This document shows, piece by piece, positions 12,645-17,891 of a DNA stretch of 34,846 nt. The stretch is from Chloroflexota bacterium (GTDB lineage Bacteria; Chloroflexota; Limnocylindria; Limnocylindrales; CSP1-4). Every line of letters begins with the position of its first letter. Within the stretch, counting starts at the first letter, position 1. The notes beneath the pieces were generated by a model. The model did no database searches and was not told the origin of the DNA. It saw only the letters and a program-made list of their open reading frames with translations. The position numbers and the translations under genes are program-made. Where the stretch lies: the NCBI GenBank assembly GCA_025351245.1, contig JANXWH010000064.1:1-34846 (forward strand). Reading direction: 5' to 3'.

Positions 12645-13767
12645 TCACGCTGGCTCGGCCGTGCCGCTGACCGGGGCGCCGGTCGCCTCGCGCTCCAGCT
12701 CGGCCGCCATGAAGACGTCCAGGTCGCCGTCGAGCACCGCCGCCGTGTTGGACGTCTCCACGCCGGTCCGGTGGTCCTTGACCATCTGGTACGGGTGCAG
12801 GACGTAGCTCCGGATCTGGTTGCCCCAGCCGGCCTCGACGTGCTCGCCCTTGATGAGCCGCAGCTCGACCTCCTTCTCCTCCAGGCGACGCTCCAGGAGC
12901 CGGGCGGCAAGGACCTTGGACGCGGTCTCGCGGTTCTGCGTCGCGGAGCGCTCGTTCTGGCAGGTCACCACGATCCCGGTGGGGACGTGGGTCAGCCGCA
13001 CGGCCGAGTTCGTCTTCTGGACGTGCTGCCCGCCCGCCCCGGACGATCGATACATCTCCACCCGGATCTCGTCCCAGTTGAGCTCCACCTCGGCCTCGTC
13101 CTCCACCTCGGGCATCACCTCGATGAGCGCGAACGTCGTCTGGCGGCGCTTCTGCGAGTCGTACGGGCTGATCCTGACCAGCCGGTGCACGCCGCGCTCG
13201 GGGCGCAGCCAGCCGTACGCCCGCCGGCCGTCCACGCTGAACGTGACGCTCTTGAGGCCGGTCTGCTCGCCCTCCGTCTGGTCCACGACCTCCGTCGAGA
13301 AGCGATGGCGCTCGGCCCAGCGCAGGAACATCCGGAGGAGCATCTCCGCCCAGTCCGTCGCCTCGGTCCCGCCGGCACCCGCGCTGATCGTGACCAGCGC
13401 GCCGCGCTGGTCGTATTCCCCCGAGAAGAGGAGGGCGGTGCGCTCGCGCTCGAACGAGACGCGGAGCGCATCGGCGTCGCGATCGATCTCGGCGAGCATC
13501 TCGGCGTCGTCGGCCTCGGCGGCGAGGTCGGCCAGCTCCTCGAGCCCCGTGGCGCGCGACTCCAGGTCCTGCCAGAGGGTCAGCTCCCCCTGGAGTCCGT
13601 CGGCCTCGCGAAGGATCCTCTGGGCGCGCCGCTGGTCATCCCAGAACCCGGGAACGCCGATCAGCGCGTTGAGCTCCGCGACGCGCGCTTCCTTCGCGGG
13701 GAGGTCAAAGACGCCCCGAGGTCGCGTGGATCCGCCCGGCAAGATCGCGGAGGCCGGCCCGGTCCAT
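12645..13767 (-). CDS. prfB: Peptide chain release factor 2, with +1 programmed frameshift
   Basis: The first frame starts with ATG at 13767 and runs 20 codons to TGA at 13707-13705. The site reads GGGG-CGT-CTT-TGA-C, matching the known RF2 frameshift signal (Shine-Dalgarno-like GGGG three nt before CTT TGA C). Skipping T13707 joins the rest (13706-12645, GAC CTC on), giving about 373 aa, normal for RF2 (E. coli 365). RF2 reads UGA and UAA stop codons; low RF2 favours the shift, so it regulates itself. GGQ (catalysis) is at 245-247. The stop-recognition loop is SPY (200-202) instead of SPF, followed by RRQTTF. The gene starts directly after the stop of the Cys-rich ORF (no gap) and is followed by the GNAT gene. 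Confidence 0.96.
13704..13717 (-). promoter_or_regulatory. prfB +1 frameshift site
   Basis: GGGGCGTCTTTGAC on the minus strand (13717 to 13704). The slippery CTT, the in-frame TGA and the following C are all present, with an internal GGGG at the spacing used in other bacteria. Confidence 0.92.
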
Positions 13768-13992
13768 CTAGGCTCGGCCTCGCACGTCCTGGAGGAGGAT
13801 CGGCCGGAGCTCGATGAGCCGCAGGGCGGTCTTGCTCCGGGCGACGACGGGGTTCACGCATGCGCAGTACGCGTTGTGAGCGCAAACGCCGCAATTTCCA
13901 TCGCAGTCCAGCGCCGCAGCGTAACTGCAGTTCCTGCAGTCTCGCTCACAGGCGATGAGATCGACGAACGCGGCGTCAGTGATCTGCTTCAC
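13768..13992 (-). CDS. Small cysteine-rich protein encoded directly upstream of prfB
   Basis: 74 aa from GTG at 13992, with GAGGGAG just upstream. The reading frame is open further 5', but the promoter lies inside that part, which rules out an earlier start. Eight Cys fall within 31 residues, at positions 15, 19, 22, 30, 34, 37, 43 and 45: CERDCRNC, CDGNCGVC, then CAC. The two C-x3-C-x2-C groups plus CxC suggest metal or Fe-S binding, or a redox function. The remainder (SKTALRLIELRPILL) may be a helix. The stop TAG abuts the prfB ATG with no gap, so translation is probably coupled. I do not recognise the family. The dense, regular Cys spacing argues that it is a real protein. Confidence 0.65.
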   Translation of the reverse strand: MKQITDAAFVDLIACERDCRNCSYAAALDCDGNCGVCAHNAYCACVNPVVARSKTALRLIELRPILLQDVRGRA

Positions 13993-14083
13993 CGCTCCCT
14001 CAAGCACTGCAGTGGCGACGTCTGGCCGGTCGAATTCCCGCCGGGACGGGAGCTGGGCATCGCCGGTCGGTGATAATGGTGTG

Positions 14084-14112
14084 AGTATACGAGGGCAACG
14101 CAAAGCGGCCAA
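14084..14112 (-). promoter_or_regulatory. Promoter of the Cys-rich protein / prfB / GNAT operon
   Basis: TTGGCC (14112-14107), 17-bp spacer, TATACT (14089-14084) on the minus strand. The predicted start near 14077 gives an 85-nt leader before the GTG at 13992. Confidence 0.7.
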
Positions 14113-14143
14113 GAGGGAGTTTTCGGCAGAGGGAGTTTTCGGC
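14112..14143. repeat. 16-bp perfect tandem repeat abutting the prfB-operon -35 box
   Basis: AGAGGGAGTTTTCGGC occurs twice head to tail (14112-14127, 14128-14143). It sits directly upstream of the -35, where an activator would bind, and contains AAAA runs on the minus strand that could also act as UP elements. Confidence 0.85.
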
Positions 14144-14220: not shown

Positions 14221-14883
14221 TCACGGCGAGCCGGCCACCCCGAGCTCCGGGCCGATCGCCCCGCCCACCAGGCCGTAGAAGGCCAGCGCGCCAAGCTCGT
14301 GCAGGGTCGCATCCAGGCGCTGTCCCAGGCCGGCATCGGTCGGGCTTGTCGTCGTCGGTGAGCCGTACGCCTGGATCTTCAGGTCCTTGCCCATCCGCAT
14401 CACGCGCAGCATGTGCGTCCGGTCCGAGACGAAGAGCGCGCTTCGCAGCCCATGCGCGCGGAGGATGCCGGCCACCGACTCGAGCGATTCGAGCGTGGAC
14501 CGGCCGCGATCCTCCTCGAGAATTGCGGCGTCGGGAACGCCGTGGGCGACCGCGTAGGCGCGCGCGACCGCGGCCTCCGTCGTCCGGTCGCCCTCGCGCC
14601 GACCGCCAGTCACGATGAGGACGGGCGCCACACCGTCCGCGTAGAGGCGCACCGCGTGGTCAAGGCGGCTGGCGAAGACCGGTGACGGCCGCCCGTCGTA
14701 CTGCGCCGCGCCCATCACGACGATCGCGTCCACCGGCCGCGTCTCGTCCACGGTGCCGTGCTGCCAGATCTGAAAGGTCGCGTAGCCGATGACGAGGACG
14801 CCGCCGACGACCACGGCCAGGCCCACGAGGGCGAGCTCGCGGACCGGCGACCGCCCGACGTGATCCCTCAGCGGCCGTGACAT
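14221..14883 (-). CDS. YdcF/SanA-like DUF218 membrane protein
   Basis: 220 aa from an ATG at 14883 that overlaps the secA 3' end by 16 nt; the site lacks a clear ribosome-binding sequence, so the start is provisional. A single membrane helix (about 16-36, ELALVGLAVVVGGVLVIGYA) anchors an outer DUF218 domain: DAIVVMGAAQYDGRPSP (52-68), HAVRLYADGVAPVLIVTGG, then EDRGRSTLESLESVAGILRA and ALFVSDRTHMLRVMRMGKD. DUF218 proteins of the SanA/ElyC/YdcF group are linked to envelope integrity in E. coli, with an unknown reaction. The gene is translationally coupled to secA. Confidence 0.82.
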   Translation of the reverse strand: MSRPLRDHVGRSPVRELALVGLAVVVGGVLVIGYATFQIWQHGTVDETRPVDAIVVMGAAQYDGRPSPVFASRLDHAVRLYADGVAPVLIVTGGRREGDRTTEAAVARAYAVAHGVPDAAILEEDRGRSTLESLESVAGILRAHGLRSALFVSDRTHMLRVMRMGKDLKIQAYGSPTTTSPTDAGLGQRLDATLHELGALAFYGLVGGAIGPELGVAGSP

Positions 14884-17800
14884 TTCTTGAACTTGAGCCC
14901 CGACCCGCAATAGCACGGGTCGTTGCGGCCGAGCTTCGCGGCCGCGGGGTTCGCGCCCCTGGCGGAGTCGGAGCGGGCCTCGTCGCCCAGCCGCTCCTGC
15001 ATCGCCCGGAGGGCGGGCGCCGCGGGGAGGTTTCGAGCGGCCGCCACGGCCGCAGGCGAGGGCCCCGAGGGTCGGGCGCTCGAGGTGGAGGCCCCACCGC
15101 CCGAGAACGTGGCGCTCGTCGGAGCCGTGCCGCTCACGCTCGGCTGGGTGGCAGCGCCCGCGGCGCTTGCAGACCGGACCGCCGCGGCGCCGGCAGCGAG
15201 GCTCGCGACGAGCTCCGCCTCGTCGGCCGTAGGGGTCGAGGGCTGCCGGACCACCGAGACGCGGAAGATCGTCGTCGCCACCTGGTGGCGGATCAGGTCG
15301 CTCAGCTGGTCGTAGAGGTTGAAGGCCTCCTTCTTGAACTCGTTGAGCGGGTCCTGCTGGGCATAGCCGCGGAGCCCGATCCCGCGCCGCATGTCGTCGA
15401 GCTCCGTCAGGTGCTCGATCCAGAGCGAGTCGACCGTCCGGAGCAGGACGAGGCGCTCGATCATCGACCAGTCCTCGGCGCCAACCTCGGCCGACTTCTC
15501 CTGGAGCTTCGCGTCGGCCAGGTCGCGGAGATGACCCGCCAGCGCCTCGCGGCCGCCCATCTCCCAGAGCTCGTCCTCCGAGGTTCCCGGCCCTTCCAGG
15601 CCCATGGCGTTCAGCGCCGCGGCGAGCCCTTCCATGTTCCAGTCATCGGGGATCTCGGCCGTGCAGTACGTGGCGAGGAGCGCGTCCACCTCCTCGTCGA
15701 GGAACGCGTGGGTCGTCTCGGTCAGGTCCTCGTTGCGGAGCACCTTGTCGCGCTCGGCGTAGATCGTCTCGCGCTGCTTGTTGATCACGTCGTCGAACTC
15801 GACGACGCGCTTCCGGATGTCGAAGTTGTAGCCCTCGACCCGCGTCTGGGCGCTTTCGATGGTCTTGCTGACGATGCGCGATTCGATCGCGACGTCGTCC
15901 TCCAGCCCCAGCCGCTCCATCAGGCCCGCCACCCGCTCGGAGGCAAAGCGCTTCATGAGGTCGTCTTCGAGCGAGAGGTAGAAGCGCGACGAGCCGGGGT
16001 CGCCCTGCCGCCCGGCGCGGCCGCGGAGCTGGTTGTCGATCCGGCGCGAGTCGTGGCGCTCGGTACCGATGATGTGGAGCCCGCCCGCGGCCACCACCCG
16101 TTCGTGGTCGGCGTCGCAGATCGCCTTCGCCTCGGCGAAGGCCTCGTCGTAGGTCGCCTTGTCCACCTCGGCAGGGTTCAGCCCGCGCTGATGGAGGATC
16201 TCCGAGGCCATTCCGGCGGGGTTGCCGCCCAGCTGGATGTCCGTCCCTCGGCCGGCCATGTTCGTCGCGATCGTGACGGCGCCCGAACGGCCCGCCTGGG
16301 CGACGATCGGCGCCTCCTTCTCGTGGAACTTGGCGTTGAGAACCTCGTGCTTGATGCCGCGCCGCCCGAGGAGCTCGGAGAGGATCTCGGACTTCTCGAC
16401 GCTGACCGTGCCCACCAGGATCGGCCGGCCCGCATCCTGCATCTCGACGGTCTCGTCGATGAGCGCCTTGTATTTGCCCTGCTCGTTGCGGAAGACCAGG
16501 TCCTGCTCGTCGTCGCGGATCATGGGCTGGTTGGTCGGGATCGAGACCACCTCCAGCTTGTAGATCTTGTGGAACTCCTCGGCCTCGGTCATCGCGGTAC
16601 CGGTCATGCCGGCGAGCTTCGCGTAGAGGCGGAAGTAGTTCTGGAACGTGACGGTGGCGAGGGTCACGGACTCGCGCTGGACGCGCAGCCCCTCCTTTGC
16701 CTCCATCGCCTGGTGGATGCCCTCGCTCCAGCGCCGGTCGGGCATCTGGCGCCCGGTGAACTCGTCGACGATGACGATCTCGCCGTCCCGGACGATGTAG
16801 TCGCGATCGCGCTTGTAGAGCGCGTGGGCCTTGAGCGCCGCATCGAAGTAGCGGGTCAGCCGCGGATCGTCGTAGAGGTTCTGGACGCCGAGCCACTGCT
16901 CGATCTTCGTGATCCCCTCTTCCGTCGGCGAGACCGCCCGATCCTTGAGGTCGACGAAGTAGTCGCCGCCCTCCTCCTCGCCCTCCGCTCGCGCCCGAAG
17001 ACGGGGCACGAGCCGGGCGAACTGGAAGTACAGGTCCGCCGACTCTTCAGCCTGGCCGCTGATGATCAGCGGCGTGCGCGCCTCGTCGATGAGGATGTTG
17101 TCCACCTCGTCGACGATCGCGAAGTAGTGGCCCCGCTGGACGCGCTGGTCCATCTCCGTGACCAGGTTGTCGCGCAGGTAGTCGAACCCGAAGTGATGGT
17201 TCGTTCCGTACGTCACGTCCGCCGCGTAGGCCTCGCGGCGCGAGCACGGGCGGAGGTTGATCAGCCGTTCGTCGGTGGTGGGGTAGCCGGGCTCGAAGCG
17301 GTACGCTTCCTCGCCCACCACGATTCCGACCGAGACGCCGAGGAAGTGGAAGATCGGGCCCATCCACTGCGCGTCGCGGCGGGCCAGGTAGTCGTTCACG
17401 GTCACGACGTGGACGCCCTGGCCGGTCAGTCCGTTGAGGGCGGCGGCCATCGGTGCGATGAGGGTCTTGCCCTCGCCGGTCCGCATCTCCGCGATCTTGC
17501 CCTGGTGGAGCACGCAGGCGCCCATCAGCTGGACGTCGAAGTGGCGCATTCCGAGCGTCCGGCGCATCCCTTCGCGGGCGGCGGCGAAGACCTCCGGCAG
17601 GACGTCGTCGAGCGCCGCCTGGAGTTGGGCGGTCTCCTTCGTCAGTCGATCCGTCTTGAGATCGCGGCGGCGGGCGGGTTCGTCCTGCTCGAGCTCGTCG
17701 GTGGTCGGGCCGAATCCCGCCTGGAGCTCCGCCAGCTCCGCCCGGATCTCGTCCATCCGAGCCTGGACCTGGGCATCGGACTCGCCCTGGAGATCCGGTT

Positions 17801-17891
17801 CAAGGGCGTTCGCGGCATCCACGAGCGGCTGGACGCGCCGGACTTCGCGGTCATTGGAATCGACGAAACGGGAGAGGAAGCCGAGCACCAT
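14868..17891 (-). CDS. secA: Protein translocase ATPase SecA
   Basis: 1007 aa. SecA drives preproteins through SecYEG by ATP hydrolysis. Walker A MRTGEGKT (136-143), DEVDNILIDEART (261-273) for Walker B, TGTAMTEAEEFHKIY, and helicase motif blocks ATNMAGRGTDIQLGG and QLRGRAGRQGDPGSSRFYLS are all present. A linker rich in Ala/Ser/Pro (about 895-985) leads to the C-terminal zinc motif NDPCYCGSGLKFKKCHGR, which binds SecB or ribosomes in other bacteria. The ATG at 17891 lies 9 nt after a TATACT box, so the mRNA is nearly leaderless. It starts its own unit after the gyr/prs operon, and the DUF218 gene overlaps its end. Confidence 0.98.
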   Translation of the reverse strand: MVLGFLSRFVDSNDREVRRVQPLVDAANALEPDLQGESDAQVQARMDEIRAELAELQAGFGPTTDELEQDEPARRRDLKTDRLTKETAQLQAALDDVLPEVFAAAREGMRRTLGMRHFDVQLMGACVLHQGKIAEMRTGEGKTLIAPMAAALNGLTGQGVHVVTVNDYLARRDAQWMGPIFHFLGVSVGIVVGEEAYRFEPGYPTTDERLINLRPCSRREAYAADVTYGTNHHFGFDYLRDNLVTEMDQRVQRGHYFAIVDEVDNILIDEARTPLIISGQAEESADLYFQFARLVPRLRARAEGEEEGGDYFVDLKDRAVSPTEEGITKIEQWLGVQNLYDDPRLTRYFDAALKAHALYKRDRDYIVRDGEIVIVDEFTGRQMPDRRWSEGIHQAMEAKEGLRVQRESVTLATVTFQNYFRLYAKLAGMTGTAMTEAEEFHKIYKLEVVSIPTNQPMIRDDEQDLVFRNEQGKYKALIDETVEMQDAGRPILVGTVSVEKSEILSELLGRRGIKHEVLNAKFHEKEAPIVAQAGRSGAVTIATNMAGRGTDIQLGGNPAGMASEILHQRGLNPAEVDKATYDEAFAEAKAICDADHERVVAAGGLHIIGTERHDSRRIDNQLRGRAGRQGDPGSSRFYLSLEDDLMKRFASERVAGLMERLGLEDDVAIESRIVSKTIESAQTRVEGYNFDIRKRVVEFDDVINKQRETIYAERDKVLRNEDLTETTHAFLDEEVDALLATYCTAEIPDDWNMEGLAAALNAMGLEGPGTSEDELWEMGGREALAGHLRDLADAKLQEKSAEVGAEDWSMIERLVLLRTVDSLWIEHLTELDDMRRGIGLRGYAQQDPLNEFKKEAFNLYDQLSDLIRHQVATTIFRVSVVRQPSTPTADEAELVASLAAGAAAVRSASAAGAATQPSVSGTAPTSATFSGGGASTSSARPSGPSPAAVAAARNLPAAPALRAMQERLGDEARSDSARGANPAAAKLGRNDPCYCGSGLKFKKCHGR

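Follow-up and report, generated by a model that had tools for sequence, protein, structure and literature searches.

A conserved Cys-rich protein encoded directly upstream of prfB in the bacterial class Limnocylindria

The autoregulation of prfB, the gene of release factor 2 (RF2), is a textbook case of recoding, and ArfA, BrfA and ArfT are small rescue factors that recruit RF2 and work with it; to our knowledge, none of the three is Cys-rich. The metallothioneins of prokaryotes, like further small metal proteins rich in Cys, are likewise short and carry a C-x-C motif at their end. The protein described here shares its small size with the RF2-recruiting factors, and its shortness, its abundance of Cys and a final C-x-C with the metallothioneins and similar metal proteins, but it differs from the former in having no Pfam or NCBIfam match and from the latter in that 18 members scanned against Pfam gave nothing up to E 10 besides a single weak and unrelated match (E 0.075).

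In the surveyed prfB +1 frameshift systems the site CTTTGAC is accompanied by a G-rich, Shine-Dalgarno (SD)-like element a few nucleotides upstream (PMC12421855). We see the same arrangement in this locus and in those relatives that we inspected, and the shift site itself is ordinary. The locus appears to differ from the surveyed systems in its probably coupled upstream ORF and in the predicted pairing of the SD-like element, neither of which came up in a keyword search of that survey. Nor did our search of the open-access literature turn up any description of a Cys protein coupled to prfB from upstream.

The Cys-rich gene and its family

The window analysed here, a stretch of 34,846 nt, contains the following features around prfB:

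13768..13992, minus strand: Cys-rich ORF, 74 aa, eight Cys, with GTG start (at 13992) and TAG stop (at 13768)
13995..14001, minus strand: SD sequence GAGGGAG of the Cys-rich ORF, just 5' of the GTG
14112..14084, minus strand: promoter TTGGCC-N17-TATACT, kept in relatives
12645..13767, minus strand: prfB (release factor 2), its ATG immediately following the TAG, with PCRF and RF-1 domains
13710-13704, minus strand: CTTTGAC, programmed +1 frameshift site of prfB, starting 57 nt past the stop of the Cys-rich ORF, present in relatives
14221..14916, minus strand: DUF218 (YdcF-like) gene, between secA and the Cys-rich ORF, outside the unit
14868..17891, minus strand: secA, recognised by eye from the sequence and its SEC-C tail, found nearby in most relatives, not part of the unit

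The Cys-rich ORF lies on the same strand as prfB and its translated product is VKQITDAAFVDLIACERDCRNCSYAAALDCDGNCGVCAHNAYCACVNPVVARSKTALRLIELRPILLQDVRGRA*, with Cys residues at 15, 19, 22, 30, 34, 37, 43 and 45, which form two C-x3-C-x2-C triads and a last C-x-C. A previous sequence-only reading of this DNA had given exactly these positions, leaving the strand unstated, and its further observations on the gene agree with our data as well. It had let the ORF end where prfB begins, and the TAG indeed occupies 13770-13768 and the prfB ATG 13767-13765; it had assigned the ORF its own ribosome site, and a purine-rich, GAGGGA-like element is kept in the family; and it had placed the ORF first after a good promoter, of which a corresponding TTG.../TA...T pair is found at a similar place in 76 of 107 distinct relatives, compared with 1.2% of shuffled sequences. 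The -35 end of this promoter is abutted by a tandem 16-bp repeat at 14112-14143 (AGAGGGAGTTTTCGGC in plus-strand reading), which is possibly an operator or possibly a product of chance.

The family, which the same reading had not recognised, is new to the libraries searched. Pfam, NCBIfam and PHROGs profiles, including those of prokaryotic metallothionein and radical SAM proteins, gave no family match, and in a profile search of the PDB nothing came up beyond chance hits to profilin and beta-galactosidase. AlphaFold models from alignments of 36 and 20 rows had a mean pLDDT of 46 and 50 and were uninformative. Of the Rfam 15 covariance models only tmRNA reached threshold in the window (RF00023, 6825-7198, minus strand, E 1.4e-43), and no known RNA leader family was found.

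Within the sampled Chloroflexota genomes, relatives of the protein are confined to one class. With tblastn, 81 of 101 related genomes matched at the loose limit of E <= 1, and nearly all genomes of the same family (f1) and of the same class outside family f2 at E <= 1.8e-9, far better than chance would give; identity to the window protein is 73-99% in f1 and 49-63% in the families f3, f4 and f5, which belong to the same class. No convincing match came from f2, whose genomes measure about 1 Mb. A Cys-ORF match is also missing from five f1 genomes and one f4 genome, which we treated as missing sequence, since their prfB is likewise not found, cut short or situated at a contig edge. When 400 Chloroflexota genomes were searched with a profile, 48 matched, every one in Limnocylindria. 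All sampled families of this class except f2 possess the protein, and it was found in no other class. Of the 139 stretches confirmed by a pattern scan across 84,980 species genomes, the 80 best are titled Chloroflexi (Chloroflexi bacterium CSP1-4 among them), Chloroflexota or Limnocylindrales, with one exception titled Thermomicrobiales; searches of plasmids, phages and viral contigs found no relative. Four clades, CSP1-4, Limnocylindraceae, QHBO01 and P2-11E, are given in PMC13212565, and we infer that f1, the family of the window, is CSP1-4 and f2 Limnocylindraceae, and more loosely that f4 is QHBO01 and f3 P2-11E. Provided that the inferred tree holds, the protein dates back to the ancestor of Limnocylindria and was lost a single time, in f2.

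The sequence-only reading had named a loss of the Cys pattern in relatives and a dN/dS near 1 as evidence against its proposal, and our data reveal the opposite in both respects. In an alignment of proteins with 37-91% identity to that of the window, all eight Cys are invariant, together with I13, E16, Y24, L28, D31, G32, Y42 and V46, while S23, D29 and P44 are nearly so. The median dN/dS is 0.066 for codons 15-69 (3,055 pairs) and 0.051 in the Cys core. The Cys-rich ORF is thus confirmed as a genuine gene, and its protein is conserved and under purifying selection.

Partnership and contact with prfB

Wherever a locus contains both genes, 68 loci in all, the Cys-rich ORF is the gene immediately preceding prfB in the same orientation; conserved synteny had been named by the sequence-only reading as something that would support its proposal. 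Even in two loci with secA oriented opposite to the pair (L067 and L068), the pair remains intact despite the rearrangement. Among 18 prfB loci taken as controls from genomes not in the class (L214-L231), upstream sequence is present in 17; inspected by eye, none of their small upstream ORFs has the motif, and several have secA next to prfB. These observations support a permanent pairing of the Cys-rich protein with prfB.

The two genes are also in close contact. Among 87 f1 sequences, the stop of the Cys-rich ORF and the start of prfB overlap by 1 nt in 61 and abut exactly in 19; the TTG start of prfB is located 14 nt inside the Cys-rich ORF in 9 of 9 f4 sequences, and a gap of 0-13 nt separates the genes in f3, with prfB start codons picked by a simple rule for all these counts. 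The f4 proteins are 98-103 aa long and share the MKQ beginning, with a GGAGG-type site before it. Mean SD duplex energies at the Cys and prfB starts are -6.5 versus -4.7 in f1, -9.6 versus -4.9 in f4 and -5.9 versus -0.6 in f3; the ribosome site of prfB is therefore weaker than that of the Cys-rich ORF in all three families, yet it is not absent. The locus resembles translationally coupled overlapping cistrons in the contact of stop and start (here as TAGTG, TGATG or TAGATG), and it may resemble them in the site of the second gene, here prfB, as well. Judged by the contact, the Cys-rich protein and RF2 are probably made together by translational coupling. Unlike in coupled cistrons generally, the first gene here encodes a Cys-rich protein seen exclusively together with RF2, and the stop of this gene tends not to be TGA.

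This bias is considerable: TAG or TAA ends the Cys-rich ORF in 64 of 87 f1, 9 of 9 f4 and 8 of 11 f3 sequences. Only 23 of the 87 f1 ORFs use TGA, compared with 72 of 89 prfB, 63 of 83 secA and 50 of 77 ydcF genes of f1, a background taken from genes of the same loci; all these counts are raw and include the effect of shared ancestry. The preference may be read as avoidance of RF2-dependent termination before the RF2 gene.

As the protein is never found apart from prfB, it would act with RF2 or in termination. On the other hand, it could be a general metal or redox housekeeping protein unrelated to RF2, whose position in the prfB operon was simply inherited from the ancestor of the class. Small Cys-rich proteins commonly bind metal, a direct functional link to RF2 was not found, and f2 lost the whole Cys core but retains prfB and its frameshift site, so that RF2 synthesis as such does not depend on the protein. 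Inheritance of position does not readily account, however, for a pair that stays while its neighbours secA and DUF218 move or vanish, nor for an overlap geometry that varies by family with contact or near-contact kept, and we regard this explanation as somewhat unlikely.

Predicted pairing with the frameshift site

In f1 a second connection between the two genes may exist at the RNA level, where a long-range helix, P1, is predicted from two segments:

13841..13852, minus strand: CCCCGUCGUCGC, codons 47-51 of the Cys-rich ORF, predicted 5' arm of P1
13714..13725, minus strand: GCGACCUCGGGG, the SD-like element that stimulates the prfB frameshift, predicted 3' arm of P1

The G-rich SD-like element just upstream of CTTTGAC is CGGGGCGTCTTTGAC, and CCCCG-UC-GUCGC of the Cys-rich ORF is predicted to pair with GCGAC-CU-CGGGG of this element. 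The predicted probability of P1 is near 1 in a folding window cut to the region and averages 0.59 in a wider one. Codons 46-54 of f1 (GTG AAC CCC GTC GTC GCC CGG AGC AAG) show few synonymous changes: all 62 distinct sequences have CCC for Pro48, as opposed to 28 of 49 for Pro38, and synonymous excess identity amounts to 0.77 at residues 46-54 versus at most 0.55 in prfB windows (windows holding Cys gave no value, which leaves 46-54 unaffected). Of the 62 distinct f1 sequences, 61 also encode Val46 (13855-13857, minus strand) by GTG, a synonymous constraint at a codon placed outside the predicted pairing.

Further analyses of the fold gave a mixed picture. Synonymous recoding of f1 left overall folding stability about unchanged (mean z -0.29), and covariation in helices P1-P4 was no greater than in shuffles; both arms of P1 are nearly invariant, and because of this invariance covariation cannot prove P1 in f1. 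Mean folding z-scores are -2.9 in f2, -1.85 in f1, -1.3 in f4 and -0.5 in f3; a control stretch taken from the ORF gave 0.04. A consistent P1 pairing was sought in f3 and f4 and not found. In several f3 loci (L040-L050) the start of the Cys-rich ORF, AUGAAGGAA, is predicted to pair, over a distance of about 260 nt, with UUCCUUU of the prfB shift site, which may be chance, with both sides conserved for other reasons. The predicted P1 pairing is thus restricted to f1 and f2, whereas the protein and its contact with prfB extend to f3, f4 and f5, so that the protein layer and the RNA layer differ in age.

The leaders of f2 (L180-L186, L191 and L232-L238) are predicted to fold into one long hairpin around the prfB start, closed by CCCCG/CGGGG on the frameshift SD-like element. 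Two-sided changes in this hairpin number 17, compared with 6.9 in shuffles, and its covariation score is 0.213 against 0.137 in shuffles (0 of 500) and at most 0.072 when slid. Several f2 members keep a short ORF, such as MKQQNPVVAFVRPSERPR in L238 (by eye), which has AACCCCGTCGTCGCC identical to f1 and a TGA that overlaps the GTG of prfB (by eye). Some f2 leaders hold an 18-codon remnant of the Cys-rich ORF without cysteines. Three members (L182, L233 and L235) have lost the start codon of the small ORF, with GCG in place of GTG, so that the ORF is seemingly decaying.

An alternative explanation is that the ORF acts in cis only, its translation as a leader setting prfB expression, for instance by slowing at its many Cys codons under cysteine shortage, with an inert peptide as product. 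The overlap of stop and start and the RNA pairing would suit such a leader, as would the short ORF without a Cys core in part of f2. We nevertheless consider it quite unlikely, because a pure leader has no need of the invariant non-Cys residues listed above, and because the low dN/dS of the Cys core goes along with a free choice between TGC and TGT. Attenuation at Cys codons in particular is unlikely, as the non-Cys residues are equally conserved. That the ORF is untranslated and conserved as an RNA element only, to which the synonymous constraint at codons 46-54 might point, is extremely improbable given strong codon-level purifying selection across the core with third positions free there, and a conserved start codon and SD sequence.

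A proposed mechanism and its meaning

We consider it fairly probable that Limnocylindria possess a class-specific metal protein that is coupled to prfB and, in the Limnocylindrales, combined with a pairing in the leader. The sequence-only reading had suggested that a metal- or redox-binding protein before the release factor could link RF2 level to Fe-S, zinc or oxidative state, and our data support its interpretation in part: the gene, its selection, synteny, overlap, promoter and stop-codon bias are established, coupling and pairing are predictions, and metal binding and an action on RF2 are hypotheses. The product of the Cys-rich ORF would be a small folded protein specific to Limnocylindria, whose two C-x3-C-x2-C triads and final C-x-C most likely build two sites for metal, either zinc or iron-sulfur; the eight invariant Cys are suggestive of such metal binding, and the exclusive partnership with prfB of an action on RF2 or in termination. 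Leading a transcription unit that it shares with prfB, the Cys-rich ORF would be loaded with ribosomes at its GAGGGAG site, and these would finish at the stop in contact with the prfB start and so be delivered to prfB. With the usual stop TAG or TAA, which is read by RF1, a shortage of RF2 need not block this delivery. For the order Limnocylindrales (f1 and f2) we predict a pairing of the SD-like element of prfB with the 3' part of the ORF, whose translation would open the structure. A more far-reaching version, which we hold to be unlikely as it stands, has two linked layers set the level or activity of RF2, namely a co-translated Cys-rich metal or redox sensor of the cellular state, acting on RF2 or the ribosome, and an mRNA structure that hides the frameshift stimulator as long as the ORF of the protein is untranslated, and supposes that freshwater streamlining dropped the protein and kept the RNA.

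An apparent natural deletion in f2, in which some members keep the pairing codons and drop the cysteines, would make roles in cis and in trans separable and testable. The bearers of the Cys-rich ORF are one class of uncultured soil bacteria, Limnocylindria, and the whole class has fixed an additional protein before prfB. If this protein binds metal and acts on RF2, the reading of stop codons in these bacteria would be linked to their metal or redox state.
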